From assembly GCA_014762635.1 (NCBI GenBank), contig JABURR010000058.1, positions 1 through 64,000 of the forward strand: 64,000 bases of DNA, given 5' to 3'. Source of the stretch: Paracoccaceae bacterium. Its GTDB lineage: Bacteria > Pseudomonadota > Alphaproteobacteria > Rhodobacterales > Rhodobacteraceae. The first letter of the stretch is position 1; each line of letters opens with the position of its first letter. Shown here piece after piece: positions 15,002 through 19,141 of the stretch. The notes under the pieces are model-generated. The model was not told the DNA's origin, made no database searches, and saw only the letters and a list, made by a program, of their open reading frames with translations. Position numbers and translations under genes: made by a program.

Positions 15002-15355
15002 TCAGATGTTGATCTTGGACTCGATGTTGCGCACCTGAATGCGCGCCATGCCAACATTGCCTTCCGCGCGCTTCACGGCGACGAACAGGAACACGCTCGG
15101 CGCGCATCTGAGCGGCCGGATGATGTGGTGCTGGTTGCCCAGCGTGATAAAGATGTCCTCGATGTCGGTTTCGAGGTCCAGCGTCTCGACAGTCTGAATG
15201 TTGGACTGCACCACCTGGGTGTACATCGCGGCCACGGCCTCAAGGTCGACGCCACCGCCACCCAGTGAGTTCACCATCAGCCCCGAATCGCTGTCCACGA
15301 GGCAAGCCCCGATAAAACCCTCGATTTCACTGGCTTTGGAGATATCCGTCGACAT
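15002..15355 (-). CDS. Roadblock/LC7-domain protein
   Basis: A 117-residue single-domain protein. The pattern IEGFIGACLVDSDSGLMV, a helix with VDLEAVAAMYTQVV, the strand pair DIFITLGNQHHIIRPL and the closing GNVGMARIQVRNIE fits the Roadblock/LC7 fold (beta-helix-beta sheet), which forms dimers and acts as a GTPase-activating or scaffolding partner, as MglB does for MglA. It is the last gene of an operon with two dynamin-like GTPases; a 91-base gap containing the 12-base palindrome TTGCCGCGGCAA (15390-15401) separates it from the gene before. I infer that it regulates or assembles these GTPases. Confidence 0.82.
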   Translation of the reverse strand: MSTDISKASEIEGFIGACLVDSDSGLMVNSLGGGGVDLEAVAAMYTQVVQSNIQTVETLDLETDIEDIFITLGNQHHIIRPLRCAPSVFLFVAVKRAEGNVGMARIQVRNIESKINI

Positions 15356-15446
15356 ACTGCTGAGTCCTTTTTTCCAGACCCTTACAGCGTTGCCGCGGCA
15401 ATTTCCACCGGATCAGTGACCTGCGACGACTTGGCGTAGCATTCTC

Positions 15447-17060
15447 TCAAAGGAACCGCTTCACACTGGCCAGCGTTTCCTGGGTATCCTCATCCGGTTC
15501 ACGATAGTCGGCGTCGCTCACCTGCTCACCGCCATAGAGACGCTGCAGGAATTCGTCGAACAGGATGGTCATCTGTTCGGTCGCCGGATCGAGTTCGTAC
15601 TGGTTGATGATCTCACGCCACAGCTCCACCTCATGCGGCAGCCGCGGCTTTGGCTTTGCCGCGCGACGCGGGGGCGGCGCGGGCTCTTCTTCCTCGTAGC
15701 CGTAATCGTCGTATTCGGGCTCGGGCTCGGGCTCGGCAGCTCGGCGACGCGCTACGGGCTGCGGCTCTTCCTCGTAGCCATCGTCGTCATAGTCATCTTC
15801 GGCTGGAAGGGCCGCGCCGAGGACAAGGGGCATCGGCTCTTCTTCGGCCTCGTAGTCATCCTCGTAGGCCGGCTCATCTTCGTAGGCGGCCTCTTCTTCG
15901 TAGGCGGCCTCTTCTTCGTAGGCGGCCTCTTCCTCATAGCCACCGTCATCATAATCGTCGTCGTCATCCTCATAGACCGGCTCAGGCTCCGGTTCCTGCA
16001 AACGCGCACGACGAGGCGCAGGTGCAGGTTCTTCCTCCTGCGTCGGGCGCATGGAAATCCGGCGTGCGACACGCGGCGCTTGATCCTCCTCCGGCTCCAT
16101 TCGCATGCTGCGCATCTGCGGCGCGGGCTCAGCTGGCACCTCGGGCTCGGGTTCCACGATCCTCATCTGCGGACGCGCCGGCGGCTCTTCTTCGGCGCCG
16201 ATCGTGGTTGCCTTCATCATCGGCGGTGCGCCGGCTCCGCGGATTCGCTGAGTCGGCCGGCGCATGCTCACGCCAGCACCACCCTCGTGATACCGAGTCA
16301 TCAGCGCCTGCCGCCGGTCAGAGATATCCGAGAACTGCGTTATGAGCAGCTCCAAGAGACGATTTCCGCCGCTAGTCTCCCACTCGTCCGTTTCTTCTCC
16401 ACGTGCCAGTTTTTCTTTTGCTTTCAACGCCCTGAGCGTGGCCATGAACACCCGACCCGCGAACAGTCCCTCGGTCTCACGATCCATGCGGCGACCAACT
16501 TTCGCGCGATCGATATCCGAGACAAGCTTATCGGCGCGGGTTACGATCAGAAGGCTGTTGCGGCGCAGGCGCTTCGGCATAGACAACCATGCGGCGCGTT
16601 CGGACTCACGCCAAGCCTGCGTGGCGCTGGTGCACCAGATCACCATGTTGGCGTAGCCAGCCGCAGTGCGCCAGTTCTCGACCGCAAGGTTCGGGTCCGA
16701 GATACCTGGCGTATCGATGATGTCGCAATGTTCAAGGATTTCCGCCTCGATGAAAATTCGAATGCAACGCGCCTCACGGGGCGCAGCGTTCAAATTGTCC
16801 ATCGACAGCGGGTGGCGCTGCATGCTTTCGTCAAGCCAATAGGGAGACTGGTTCCCGAACGAGAACCAAACCGGCGGTAATTCCGTCGCGGTCACCTTGG
16901 TTGGCAATACTTCCTCTTCGATGAGGAAGTTCAGAAGGGTCGACTTGCCAGCACTGAACTCACCCATCAGCGCAACGCAGGGTTTGCGCTGGGCCCATCT
17001 GTTCAACCGCTTGTACTGCTCACTAGTGACCTGACGGCCCGGCTTGTCGTCCAGGGACAT
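15447..17060 (-). CDS. dynamin-like GTPase with long acidic tail
   Basis: A 537-residue protein. The N-terminal GTPase domain (about 20-260) shows GEFSAGKST (33-41, P-loop), a switch-I Thr in VTATELPP, DTPGISDP (116-123) and TRAD (174-177) in place of NKxD. The TRAD form is seen in other bacterial dynamin-like and EngA-distant GTPases. From about 270 to 490 it becomes disordered and strongly acidic, with RRP/EPEP stretches and tandem AAYEEE repeats, before a short predicted helical end (LPHEVELWREIINQYELD) that may be a separate binding element. No membrane helices. Starts 11 bases after the stop of the larger dynamin-like gene. Confidence 0.8.
   Translation of the reverse strand: MSLDDKPGRQVTSEQYKRLNRWAQRKPCVALMGEFSAGKSTLLNFLIEEEVLPTKVTATELPPVWFSFGNQSPYWLDESMQRHPLSMDNLNAAPREARCIRIFIEAEILEHCDIIDTPGISDPNLAVENWRTAAGYANMVIWCTSATQAWRESERAAWLSMPKRLRRNSLLIVTRADKLVSDIDRAKVGRRMDRETEGLFAGRVFMATLRALKAKEKLARGEETDEWETSGGNRLLELLITQFSDISDRRQALMTRYHEGGAGVSMRRPTQRIRGAGAPPMMKATTIGAEEEPPARPQMRIVEPEPEVPAEPAPQMRSMRMEPEEDQAPRVARRISMRPTQEEEPAPAPRRARLQEPEPEPVYEDDDDDYDDGGYEEEAAYEEEAAYEEEAAYEDEPAYEDDYEAEEEPMPLVLGAALPAEDDYDDDGYEEEPQPVARRRAAEPEPEPEYDDYGYEEEEPAPPPRRAAKPKPRLPHEVELWREIINQYELDPATEQMTILFDEFLQRLYGGEQVSDADYREPDEDTQETLASVKRFL
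15863..15934. repeat. 18-bp tandem repeat inside the acidic-tailed GTPase gene
   Basis: Four head-to-tail 18-base units (starts 15863, 15881, 15899, 15917). The middle two are identical, the fourth has one change and the first is more diverged. On the coding strand they give the repeating Ala-Ala-Tyr-Glu-Glu-Glu block. The period is a multiple of three, so copy-number change would keep the frame. Confidence 0.85.
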
Positions 17061-17071
17061 CTACTGCTCTC

Positions 17072-19141
17072 CTATTGCGCCGCCGTCCTCATTGCCTGGG
17101 CCGGAAGCTCTTCCAGTGCCGCCATCGCCGAATCCAGCGCAGCAGTTCTTGCGGAATGTTCGCCTGCGCCAATGGCCGTACGCAGACCGTCGGCATCGAC
17201 GGAACCGGCCTTGGCAATACGGACAAGTGCGTCCGAATGATCTTCAAGGAATTCACTCAACGACAGACGAAGAGCTTCCGTTACGGAATGCGCCTGTTGT
17301 TCTTCGATTTCGCGAATGATTCCAGTCGTTTCGCCCTTGATTAGCTCGCGATATTCCTTCGCGAATGCCTCGGAGCCACGACGCGTGGCCGTCCATTTCT
17401 TCCACCAGGTGGACTGCAGATCGACAACGATCGTCTTGCCGATGGCGACCGGCGGCGGAACAGCAGGTGCAAGCGGCGGTTCGAGCCTCAGGCCGTCGGC
17501 CGGATCCCCGAGGAGATCACGATAAAGGCCGATGACTTCCTTCGACGCGCGCTTGAGGATGTTGGTCGACAAGGCACGCGAGGACCGGGTGAAATTCAGA
17601 TATGCCGCGCGAAGCTGCATCCTGAGCCGCATCGGATCGCATTCCCACTGCCCTTCGGCGCCGTGGATCTCCACATGCTTGATCATGTTTGCGATCGTGG
17701 TCTCGACGAAGGTCTCGTTGGCCGTTTCCATGCGGGAATTAAGATCAGCGAGGATCGTGTCAATATTCTTGTCCAGTTCGGTGTGCAGCCTGTTGCTGAC
17801 CTCCTTGGCGCGCGCCGCGATCTCTTTCGAACGCATTTTCACGCTCGCCTGGCCATCGATCTGCACCTGGTCGGCGATGTTCGTCGCCATGGACTGCGCA
17901 ACGATGTTCTTGAGCTGCTTGCGCGCCTTCTGGATCACGCGCTGCGCAGACCCCTGGGCCACACGCTCGCCCACGGCCGAAATCAGCGTCGGCACGCCGG
18001 ACAGCAGCCAGACCATACGGGTCGCGTCGTCACTGCCGGGAACATCCGCCACGCTGGCCCAGTCGAACAGGGCTTCCTGGCTTTCCTCGGGCAGTTGCGA
18101 AACACGTCCACGCAGGGCGGCTTCGGCCCACATGGCACTGCCGAAGACGATGTCGGCGGTGCCGCCGACGCCATGACGCTTCATGGTTTCGATCAACGAT
18201 TCGCGGATTTCACCGACCTGAACCGAAGGCTTCTCAAGTTCGTCGATCCGGTTGACGAAGATCACGACCTGACGCTTTTCGAGGTTGGTCAGCAGCCGGA
18301 CCAGTGCAAGGTCGACCGTGTTCAGGGCCTGGCTGGCGGACAGCACAACGACGCAGAGTTCCGCGGTGCGGACGCAGCGCAGAGTGATCTGTTCGCGCAT
18401 CAGGAACGGGTCGTTGACGCCCGGCGTATCCTGAATCGACAGCGAGGCCGGGTATTGCGGCACCTTGAGATAAAGGTCGGCCGAGCGGGTCAGGTCCGCG
18501 AAACGGCCCTGCTTGCCCGACTGGATATCCTCGTCATCCGGGTCGCCCATACAGACATAGCGCTCAACCAGTTCACTATCGAACCAGTCGTAATTGTGAC
18601 GCTGACCCAGCAGCAGTTCGAAGTTGCGGCCAAGGCGCTCCTTGGATTTCTCACGCACTTCCATGACCTGGCGGGCGATCTCGCTCACCTCTTCCTCGGC
18701 ACCGGCACGGCTTGCCATTTCGCCAAGACGGCCACCGCCGGAAATGATGCGGTCCCACTCGTCCTTGTCGAAGAACTGGAACTCGGCGCGGGTATTCGGC
18801 GGCGCAGGCTTGTTGATGTGAACGGTCGTCACAACCGATGTCCACGGGTTGACGTCCGAGGACAACAGCCCCGGCTGGCCGGCGATGGAGTTGATCAGCG
18901 CAGTCTTGCCCGCCTTCACCTGACCCACGATCGTCACGGTGGCGGAAAAGTCCGAGAGCATCGTGTCCACATGACGGACGCGACGCTGAGCCCTTTCGTC
19001 GACGGCACCTTCCAGATCGGACAGAACACCTTTCAGCGAGTCGACTTGCGTCCGCACCGTAGCGAGCGGTTCGGTTCCCAGCGAAAGCAGCCGGGCATTT
19101 GCCAGCTGCTTGTCGAATGGCGTCTTGGAGCGTTCGGTCAT
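17072..19141 (-). CDS. dynamin-family GTPase
   Basis: A 689-residue large GTPase. G1 is GQVKAGKT (73-80), G2 a Thr around 101-105 (NPWTSVVTT), G3 DTPGVNDP (238-245) and G4 NRID (297-300). The GTPase domain is followed by a long, mostly helical region to about 680 that would form the bundle/stalk typical of dynamins; short hydrophobic helices could act as a membrane paddle, but there is no clear transmembrane segment. These proteins usually oligomerise on membranes and bend, fuse or tether them. It heads a three-gene operon with a second dynamin-like GTPase and a Roadblock protein; paired dynamins are common in bacteria and may hetero-oligomerise. Confidence 0.85.
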   Translation of the reverse strand: MTERSKTPFDKQLANARLLSLGTEPLATVRTQVDSLKGVLSDLEGAVDERAQRRVRHVDTMLSDFSATVTIVGQVKAGKTALINSIAGQPGLLSSDVNPWTSVVTTVHINKPAPPNTRAEFQFFDKDEWDRIISGGGRLGEMASRAGAEEEVSEIARQVMEVREKSKERLGRNFELLLGQRHNYDWFDSELVERYVCMGDPDDEDIQSGKQGRFADLTRSADLYLKVPQYPASLSIQDTPGVNDPFLMREQITLRCVRTAELCVVVLSASQALNTVDLALVRLLTNLEKRQVVIFVNRIDELEKPSVQVGEIRESLIETMKRHGVGGTADIVFGSAMWAEAALRGRVSQLPEESQEALFDWASVADVPGSDDATRMVWLLSGVPTLISAVGERVAQGSAQRVIQKARKQLKNIVAQSMATNIADQVQIDGQASVKMRSKEIAARAKEVSNRLHTELDKNIDTILADLNSRMETANETFVETTIANMIKHVEIHGAEGQWECDPMRLRMQLRAAYLNFTRSSRALSTNILKRASKEVIGLYRDLLGDPADGLRLEPPLAPAVPPPVAIGKTIVVDLQSTWWKKWTATRRGSEAFAKEYRELIKGETTGIIREIEEQQAHSVTEALRLSLSEFLEDHSDALVRIAKAGSVDADGLRTAIGAGEHSARTAALDSAMAALEELPAQAMRTAAQ

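Follow-up and report, generated by a model that had tools for sequence, protein, structure and literature searches.

The 64,000-nucleotide stretch analyzed here, hereafter the window (contig JABURR010000058.1 of Paracoccaceae bacterium assembly GCA_014762635.1, our source genome), carries a trio of minus-strand genes that encode two GTPases of the dynamin superfamily, DLP-A and DLP-B, and a small Roadblock-like protein, Rob. A first-pass annotation had described three minus-strand genes of these kinds, spaced 11 and 91 bases apart, and the open reading frame (ORF) coordinates bear this out: the ORFs encode 689, 537, and 117 amino acids (aa) and are separated by gaps of these lengths. Because the trio consists of long ORFs of conserved families in a conserved order, it does not reflect chance. 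The features, with the basis of each assignment, are the following (L076 is a natural DLP-B-Rob fusion from another genome, described below).

17072..19141, minus strand: DLP-A, by its predicted fold a full-length bacterial dynamin-like GTPase, 689 aa (Pfam Dynamin_N, AlphaFold2 model, Foldseek, VIA)
17360..17506, minus strand: DLP-A stalk tip, residues 546-594, with conserved tryptophans; putative membrane contact (model helices and conservation among 13 sequences)
17061..17071: DLP-A/DLP-B gap, 11 bases (ORF coordinates)
15447..17060, minus strand: DLP-B, dynamin-superfamily GTPase, 537 aa (Pfam Dynamin_N)
16296..17060, minus strand: DLP-B G domain, about residues 1-255 (homologous domain of the L076 fusion, which matches IniA and BDLP)
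15636..16295, minus strand: DLP-B acidic, proline-rich low-complexity tail, about residues 256-475 (composition)
15450..15635, minus strand: DLP-B C-terminal segment, residues 476-537, kept in near relatives; speculatively a docking element (tail profile)
15356..15446: DLP-B/Rob gap, 91 bases, without a terminator-like site (ORF coordinates, terminator scan)
15002..15355, minus strand: Rob, putative divergent Roadblock-fold protein, 117 aa (homolog profiles; fold from the 49%-identical L076 domain)

A pattern scan, which returned fewer terminator-like sites overall than in shuffled sequences, found none in either intergenic gap; two weak patterns are intragenic, one of them in rob on the minus strand.

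DLP-A is predicted to have the complete architecture of a bacterial dynamin, in which a G domain is joined to a long helical stalk. Its Dynamin_N score is 42.4 bits (cut-off, 27), and its G motifs are GQVKAGKT at residue 73, DTPG at 238, and NRID at 297. The AlphaFold2 model, computed from a 13-row alignment (predicted local distance difference test [pLDDT], 81; predicted template modeling score [pTM], 0.82), shows a G domain, and its residues 398-688 include long helices. These helices run to residue 544 and resume at 594, placing the modeled stalk tip at about 546-594. When the model was searched with Foldseek, the first eleven PDB rows were BDLP, SynDLP, IniA, Cj-DLP1/2, and LeoA, and a VIA comparison with BDLP (2j69) gave a Z score of 16.4 and a root mean square deviation (rmsd) of 5.5 over 550 aligned residues. 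Near the tip, all 13 sequences have W580 and nearly all have W579, and the tryptophan-bearing tip is likely the site of membrane contact.

DLP-B likewise exceeds the Dynamin_N cut-off (41.2 bits against 27), with GEFSAGKS at residue 33, DTPG at 116, and TRAD at 174. The long acidic tail that the first-pass annotation ascribed to the second GTPase is also present, with 28% aspartate plus glutamate and 16% proline over the low-complexity residues 251-475. In the model of the relative L076, no stalk follows the G domain, only a helix at residues 228-254 and then a disordered linker. Because that model lacks a stalk and the tail of the window protein is of low complexity, we count DLP-B as probably stalkless, and it is apparently a dynamin-superfamily GTPase rather than a complete dynamin. 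The earlier description of two dynamin-like GTPases therefore stands as far as the Dynamin_N domain goes, but the pair would comprise one full dynamin and one probably stalkless member of the superfamily. A profile of the DLP-B C-terminal segment, built from six tails, matched 12 of 98 DLP-B proteins, all six among them. One may speculate that this segment docks Rob; its absence from both known fused proteins means little, because it is missing in 86/98 DLP-B proteins overall.

The Roadblock character of Rob emerges from its relatives. A profile of 15 Rob homologs returned just two PDB matches at E values up to 10, both Roadblock proteins and both weak (E = 0.017 and 0.043), and nine of the 15 homologs match Pfam Robl_LC7 (PF03259) at E values up to 1 (best, 2.3e-4). 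There are also two natural DLP-B-Rob fusions. The first, L076 (genome G015), has 420 aa and is 41% identical to DLP-B and 49% identical to Rob; the second, L072 (G004), is more distant, with 473 aa and identities of 31% and 32%. The L076 model (pLDDT, 86; pTM, 0.63) has its G domain in residues 1-254; residues 261-300 form a linker whose mean pLDDT is 43-54, and the Roadblock-type domain spans residues 303-420. The Roadblock fold has the topology helix, two strands, helix, three strands, helix, and the last domain of the model presents the elements H308-312, E316-323, E328-334, H341-361, E371-375, E378-384, E391-398, and H404-417 (H, helix; E, strand). VIA aligned this domain with a Streptomyces Roadblock protein (3kye; Z, 15.9; rmsd, 2.4; 113 residues), with MglB (6hjm; Z, 15.5; rmsd, 2.2; 114 residues), with an Asgard Roadblock protein (Z, 15.6), and with LAMTOR/Ragulator subunits (Z about 15), and it aligned the G domain with IniA (6j73_B; Z, 21.8; rmsd, 4.5; 247 residues) and also with BDLP. 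Because the dynamin-superfamily G domain precedes the Roadblock domain, the fusion has the domain order of Rag GTPases; Foldseek aligned it with Rag/Gtr GTPases over about 415-424 columns (E about 1e-8), at TM-scores of 0.23-0.41 and an rmsd of about 20. Read with care, Rob is a divergent Roadblock-fold protein that is not a member of PF03259, and the earlier Roadblock call holds with the same caution, the L076 domain being modeled as a Roadblock fold though Rob itself falls under the Pfam cut-off. Since two natural fusions exist, a physical link between DLP-B and Rob is likely.

A match of Rob to an NCBIfam methylmalonyl-CoA epimerase model was taken as chance (16.6 bits against a cut-off of 115, in one of the 15 homologs). 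In two further proteins, of 305 and 422 aa, a Rob domain lies at the C terminus (L215 5867-6784 and L225 5504-6772). The source genome also carries a second Rob of 161 aa, 40% identical, whose neighbor is an acyltransferase that matches the GPAT C-terminal model (L008, G000:C12, 7857-9936).

To estimate co-conservation, 61 genomes of the family Rhodobacteraceae were surveyed, one per genus, with four genomes bearing weak DLP-A matches and one bearing a weak DLP-B match excluded from the count. Strong matches to DLP-A and to DLP-B fall in the identical 16/61 genomes. Rob is present in 5/61, all five among these 16 (hypergeometric P = 0.0007, or 0.003 without the source genome, in statistics that ignore kinship), and a canonical Robl_LC7 match was found in none of the 61. 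Gene order was examined in named loci, with counts that rest on six-frame ORFs and profiles. These loci, the top 80 of a longer list, come from Rhodobacteraceae-type genera or metagenome-assembled genomes, with two titled only Alphaproteobacteria and many from Ruegeria; the 501 tblastn stretches admit any protein at E values up to 1e-3 and so are not a count of true DLP-A proteins. In all 80 best loci, DLP-A and DLP-B adjoin on the same strand. In 71 of them, either Rob (5 loci) or another small protein, F1 (66 loci), starts at most 341 bases past the DLP-B stop codon, and in 7 the sequence ends at most 423 bases from DLP-B. Thus, of the 73 among these 80 loci with enough sequence, 71 have F1 or Rob directly after DLP-B, which answers the question of co-conservation raised by the first-pass annotation in favor of a conserved arrangement. 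A second set of 15 stretches around strong DLP-A-DLP-B matches in other family genomes contained F1 or Rob in 12; in one (L080) DLP-B runs off the contig, and the set shares at least three genomes with the 80 loci, since L067, L071, and L073 seem to come from the same genomes as L095, L138, and L136, respectively. Related small ORFs (78 codons, open toward the start) occupy the F1/Rob position at L068 12950-13183 and L135 14160-14393.

In total, Rob stands beside DLP-A and DLP-B in 12 Rhodobacteraceae genomes: those of the window, L140, L085, L086, L087, L090, L206, L070, L207, L208, and the fusions L076 and L072. Three of the 12 are Rubellimicrobium, two others (G577 and G602) share a genus, and L085, L086, and L087 carry a tandem Rob pair.

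F1, the usual occupant of the Rob position, has about 130 aa and no meaningful Pfam match, and it appears by profile comparison to be Roadblock-like. Direct alignment of F1 and Rob with hhalign gave a probability of 73% (E = 3e-5). Three bridging proteins, combined in alignment A8, adjoin Rob genes outside the family (in L195 and L196), and the bridge is stronger at each step: F1 to A8 at 98% (E = 4e-15) and A8 to Rob at 95% (E = 4e-8). We count F1 as Roadblock-like because the A8 proteins link it to Rob in this way. The best PDB match of A8 is the MglB paralog MglC (E = 0.0013, residues 1-24 only). In L195 (1504-3330), from outside the family, the genes for Rob and for two F1-like proteins form a row with a Roadblock-type gene.

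Outside the family, Rob keeps other company. A class-wide sample held Rob in 1/240 genomes, the source genome only, and DLP-A at an E value of 1e-30 likewise. Across the phylum Pseudomonadota, 34/398 genomes have Rob, 30 of them outside the family; four of these 30 gave no locus, and the remaining 26 loci, each at most 3.3 kb, were analyzed. A small GTPase is found in 16/26, with 7 of the 16 being training cases of the profile, and a second Roadblock-type gene in 17/26; the two profiles were built from seven and six sequences, respectively, of the same genome set. Of three outside small GTPases compared with Pfam, ATP_bind_1 scored over its cut-off, with Ras and Roc under theirs or absent. No dynamin match was found in any of the 26 loci or in 15 outside stretches of 12-19 kb. 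The second Roadblock-type gene resembles Rob weakly (24%). Some MglA systems have two MglB genes, and many MglB genes are orphans, according to an excerpt of Wuichet and Sogaard-Andersen (PMC4316618); Rob may be the second MglB of such systems. Among the six plasmids examined of 21 records with Rob, those of Acinetobacter, Agarilytica, and Streptomyces carry Rob near Roadblock/LC7 genes, in Agarilytica also near a small GTPase; the Comamonas plasmid has two tandem Robs, and the Methylomagnum and Deinococcus plasmids show neither neighbor. On the Acinetobacter plasmid p1_010062, of conjugative type, a Roadblock/LC7 gene, a gene for a 321-aa protein with no Pfam match, and the Rob homolog lie in a row (L170 47-1924). 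Phage records gave no Rob match at an E value of 1e-3. Because the Rob family elsewhere in Pseudomonadota often adjoins a small GTPase, it likely switched partner between that class and a dynamin-superfamily GTPase.

The order of events is suggested by a DLP-A tree of 51 of 141 rows (near-identical rows removed), computed by a quick method, rooted at the midpoint, and with partly low branching support. A clade of 35 rows (support, 98) unites other DLP-A proteins, mostly from F1-type loci, and the rows from Rob loci lie outside it, namely, the window group, L090, L076, and the first DLP-A of L070; the second DLP-A of L070, which stands beside F1, falls inside. Because the Rob-locus rows lie outside the F1-type clade, the tree suggests that Rob came early and that F1 later took its place.

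The trio belongs to a larger gene set that also includes a kinase, FHA, PP2C, additional dynamins, and other Roadblock-like genes. Genome G058 has, in a single run, DLP-A, DLP-B, Rob, a kinase, an FHA protein, a PP2C phosphatase, a short dynamin-like gene, and then DLP-A, DLP-B, F1, and a further small gene, F2. Profile matches in the best 80 loci number 63 for the kinase, 61 for FHA, 68 each for F1 and F2, 41 and 50 for the profiles A2 and B2, and 25 for PP2C, a count affected by short flanks. A Leisingera plasmid is annotated with two dynamins and two hypothetical proteins; next, on the other strand, come a hypothetical protein of 439 aa that matches Dynamin_N under the cut-off, PP2C, FHA, a pair of substrate-binding proteins, and a kinase. 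In the source genome, the set is split over five contigs: C74 (the window), C17 (a DSP-type phosphatase, F1, F2, an ABC-type ATPase, A2, and B2), C32 (FHA, B2, F1, and F2), C12 (Rob), and C22 (kinase, FHA, and PP2C). Because in relatives the kinase-FHA-PP2C genes and the dynamins form an unbroken run, whereas here the set is spread over contigs, we regard the window trio as a single module within a dispersed system. The trio is thus compact, as had been proposed, but the system is not. The C17 genes (L009, 5232-11691) form a paralogous set with a stand-alone ABC-type ATPase, and L071 and L138 show the same order without A2. LysM and substrate-binding-type proteins, sometimes in tandem, occur near the set in several loci (L067 18560-19768, L119, L125, L126, L132, L133, L158, and L176) and are possible periplasmic sensors.

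These observations are combined in a reading to which we give about even odds (roughly 0.5): the trio is a Roadblock-coupled dynamin pair in which Rob acts on DLP-B and DLP-B on DLP-A, with the wider set as a switch. DLP-A would be the membrane-acting part, through its stalk and tryptophan-bearing tip, and DLP-B would carry its dynamin-superfamily G domain on an acidic tail that is long and flexible. Rob, which like other Roadblock proteins is probably dimeric, would hold or regulate the DLP-B G domain as a scaffold, GTPase-activating protein (GAP), or recruiter, and DLP-B would nucleate or gate the process by which DLP-A, depending on GTP, assembles on the inner membrane. The Ser/Thr kinase, the PP2C phosphatase, and the FHA protein, a reader of phosphothreonine, would switch assembly on and off, perhaps according to the state of the envelope. 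Rob is assigned the part of platform or GAP, and DLP-B that of gate, because of the fusions and of two precedents: paired bacterial dynamins that couple and tether membranes, one partner serving as adaptor (PMC6104087, excerpt), and MglB, a homodimeric Roadblock protein that in Myxococcus serves the polarity GTPase MglA as GAP (PMC9481161, excerpt). We infer envelope remodeling or repair as the first choice of cellular role because the presence of the genes is patchy, which speaks against a core division role, because hardly any defense gene lies among the neighbors scanned, and because LysM or substrate-binding proteins, which could sense the periplasm, occur in some loci. Of the Roadblock-regulated pair proposed in the first-pass annotation, co-conservation and the two fusions favor the core; its compactness was only half borne out, and its phage-defense option gains little support.

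Several observations weigh against this reading. Rob scores 14.3 bits against PF03259, under the cut-off of 23, and its fold is seen on the 49%-identical L076 domain rather than on the window protein. A docked interface between the two L076 domains was considered and dropped, given the pTM of 0.63 and a linker partly below a pLDDT of 50. The F1 profile by itself finds no Roadblock protein in PDB, and 11 of the 16 genomes with DLP-A and DLP-B lack Rob. At L135 there is no F1 or Rob in the 804 bases past DLP-B; at L138 none follows DLP-B, and F1 lies on the other strand upstream of DLP-A. In the second set, F1 is on the other strand only in L071 (counted among the 12), and the stretches of L068 and L079 contain the GTPase pair but neither F1 nor Rob. 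Rob stands upstream of DLP-A, away from DLP-B, in L207 and L208 (G577 and G602), and lone Rob genes occur on C12 of the source genome, in G019, and as second copies in G577 and G602. Finally, the kinase module of the source genome is on contig C22 and not on that of the window.

The lone genes, together with the small GTPases in 16/26 outside loci, are also what one would expect if Rob merely shared an operon with the dynamins, formed no complex with them, and served an unlinked small GTPase, its place here being a relic. We regard this as unlikely: two natural DLP-B-Rob fusions speak against it, as do the retention of Rob beside the GTPase pair in several deep branches of the DLP-A tree and the presence of another Roadblock-like gene, F1, in the same position in most other loci, and the small-GTPase profile found no match in the 64-kb window. 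A cell-division or polarity module in place of envelope repair also seems improbable to us. Streptomyces DynA and DynB stabilize FtsZ rings. They interact in vivo (PMC6104087, excerpt), and the action of MglB as GAP of MglA in Myxococcus (PMC9481161, excerpt) is a polarity precedent for a Roadblock protein, but no division gene was noticed by eye among the recurrent neighbor families, and a core division function is contradicted because 45/61 family genomes lack strong DLP-A and DLP-B.

A LeoABC-like or other dynamin-based antiphage defense or secretion system would fit the patchy presence (strong pairs in 16/61 genera, copies on 18 plasmid records), the LeoA structure among the Foldseek matches of DLP-A, and the PADLOC matches, LeoBC with DLP-A (43.5 bits, E = 5.9e-12) and LeoA with DLP-B (30.7 bits, E = 4.4e-8), to models with no cut-off shown. 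Such matches would be expected of any bacterial dynamin, however, and LeoABC is not known to be under kinase-PP2C-FHA control. When 73 of 110 listed proteins neighboring the window trio and eight related loci were compared with PADLOC, at most two of them matched a model at 1e-10, two RT-protease XI models each finding a single protein (best, 5.9e-16). The window neighbors, read by eye, look like housekeeping genes. An xseA-like gene lies upstream of the trio and, downstream, a small plus-strand ORF and a NuoF-like gene of formate dehydrogenase type. Defense, an option of the first-pass annotation, was rejected as the leading interpretation on the neighbor scan, despite the patchy presence, and we consider it decidedly unlikely. 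A membrane-lipid homeostasis system that senses or answers phospholipid synthesis is very doubtful. In the source genome, psd-, pssA-, and PmtA-type methyltransferase-like genes directly precede kinase-FHA-PP2C by eye (L165, G000:C22, 4742-9923), and the second Rob adjoins the acyltransferase, but these neighbors do not recur: psd, pssA, and pmtA had no BLAST match among the called genes of other loci, and the acyltransferase matched only itself, so that each was found once only.

The Roadblock-coupled pair resembles several known systems in part. Like LeoABC, it places several dynamin-like genes together, with PADLOC matches to LeoBC and LeoA; unlike LeoABC, it has Roadblock and phosphorylation genes and hardly any defense gene among the scanned neighbors. 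The threonine phosphorylation pathway of type VI secretion consists of PpkA, PppA, and Fha, and here too kinase, PP2C, and FHA genes occur together, but their companions in this set are dynamins and Roadblock-type genes. As in Rag/Gtr proteins, L076 and L072 hold a GTPase domain and a Roadblock domain in one chain, whereas the window chains are separate, the L076 G domain is of the dynamin superfamily (best matches, IniA and BDLP), and the domain placement differs. With Cj-DLP1/Cj-DLP2 and other paired dynamins (PMC6104087, excerpt), the locus shares an operon in which two dynamin-family genes adjoin and the full fold predicted for DLP-A; it differs from Cj-DLP1/Cj-DLP2 in the seemingly stalkless DLP-B, the attached Roadblock-type gene, and the wider set with kinase, PP2C, and FHA. 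With MglA-MglB and the conservon proteins CvnB-CvnD (PMC4316618 and PMC9481161, excerpts), it shares the pairing of a GTPase gene with an adjacent gene for a small Roadblock protein, and outside Rhodobacteraceae the Rob family itself is often part of such modules; the neighboring GTPase here, however, has a dynamin-superfamily G domain and is not a small GTPase.

More broadly, and only tentatively, for we put it at rather less than an even chance, Rhodobacteraceae may possess a phosphorylation-controlled multidynamin membrane machine in which Roadblock platforms govern the GTPases. A Roadblock family that serves small GTPases elsewhere would have been recruited to a dynamin-superfamily GTPase, and its fused form would be a bacterial counterpart of the Rag architecture with a dynamin G domain. 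We know of no earlier Roadblock-governed dynamin and, to our knowledge, no dedicated regulator class of bacterial dynamins has been reported. The first-pass annotation had known of no described function for this combination, and a search of titles and abstract beginnings of open papers in PubMed Central found no description of a dynamin-Roadblock pair or of a kinase-FHA-PP2C-dynamin cluster. Paired dynamins and Roadblock-GTPase pairs are known kinds; their joining is apparently undescribed. A Roadblock-type protein that is usually adjacent and twice fused is a concrete candidate for switching bacterial dynamins. If the reading is right, Roadblock partners reach beyond small GTPases, and the locus shows a GTPase platform changing its class of GTPase, which bears on the origin of Rag-type signaling. 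The carriers include many marine bacteria in culture, Ruegeria among them, so that the proposal is directly testable.

Two further gene groups were noted in the loci. A family of about 140 aa with no Pfam match lies upstream of DLP-A at L067 5043-5462 and has members in 42 loci, many of them from Ruegeria. A different three-dynamin cluster (644, 750, and 587 aa), distantly related to DLP-A and DLP-B, is found at L081 5720-11695 (G059).

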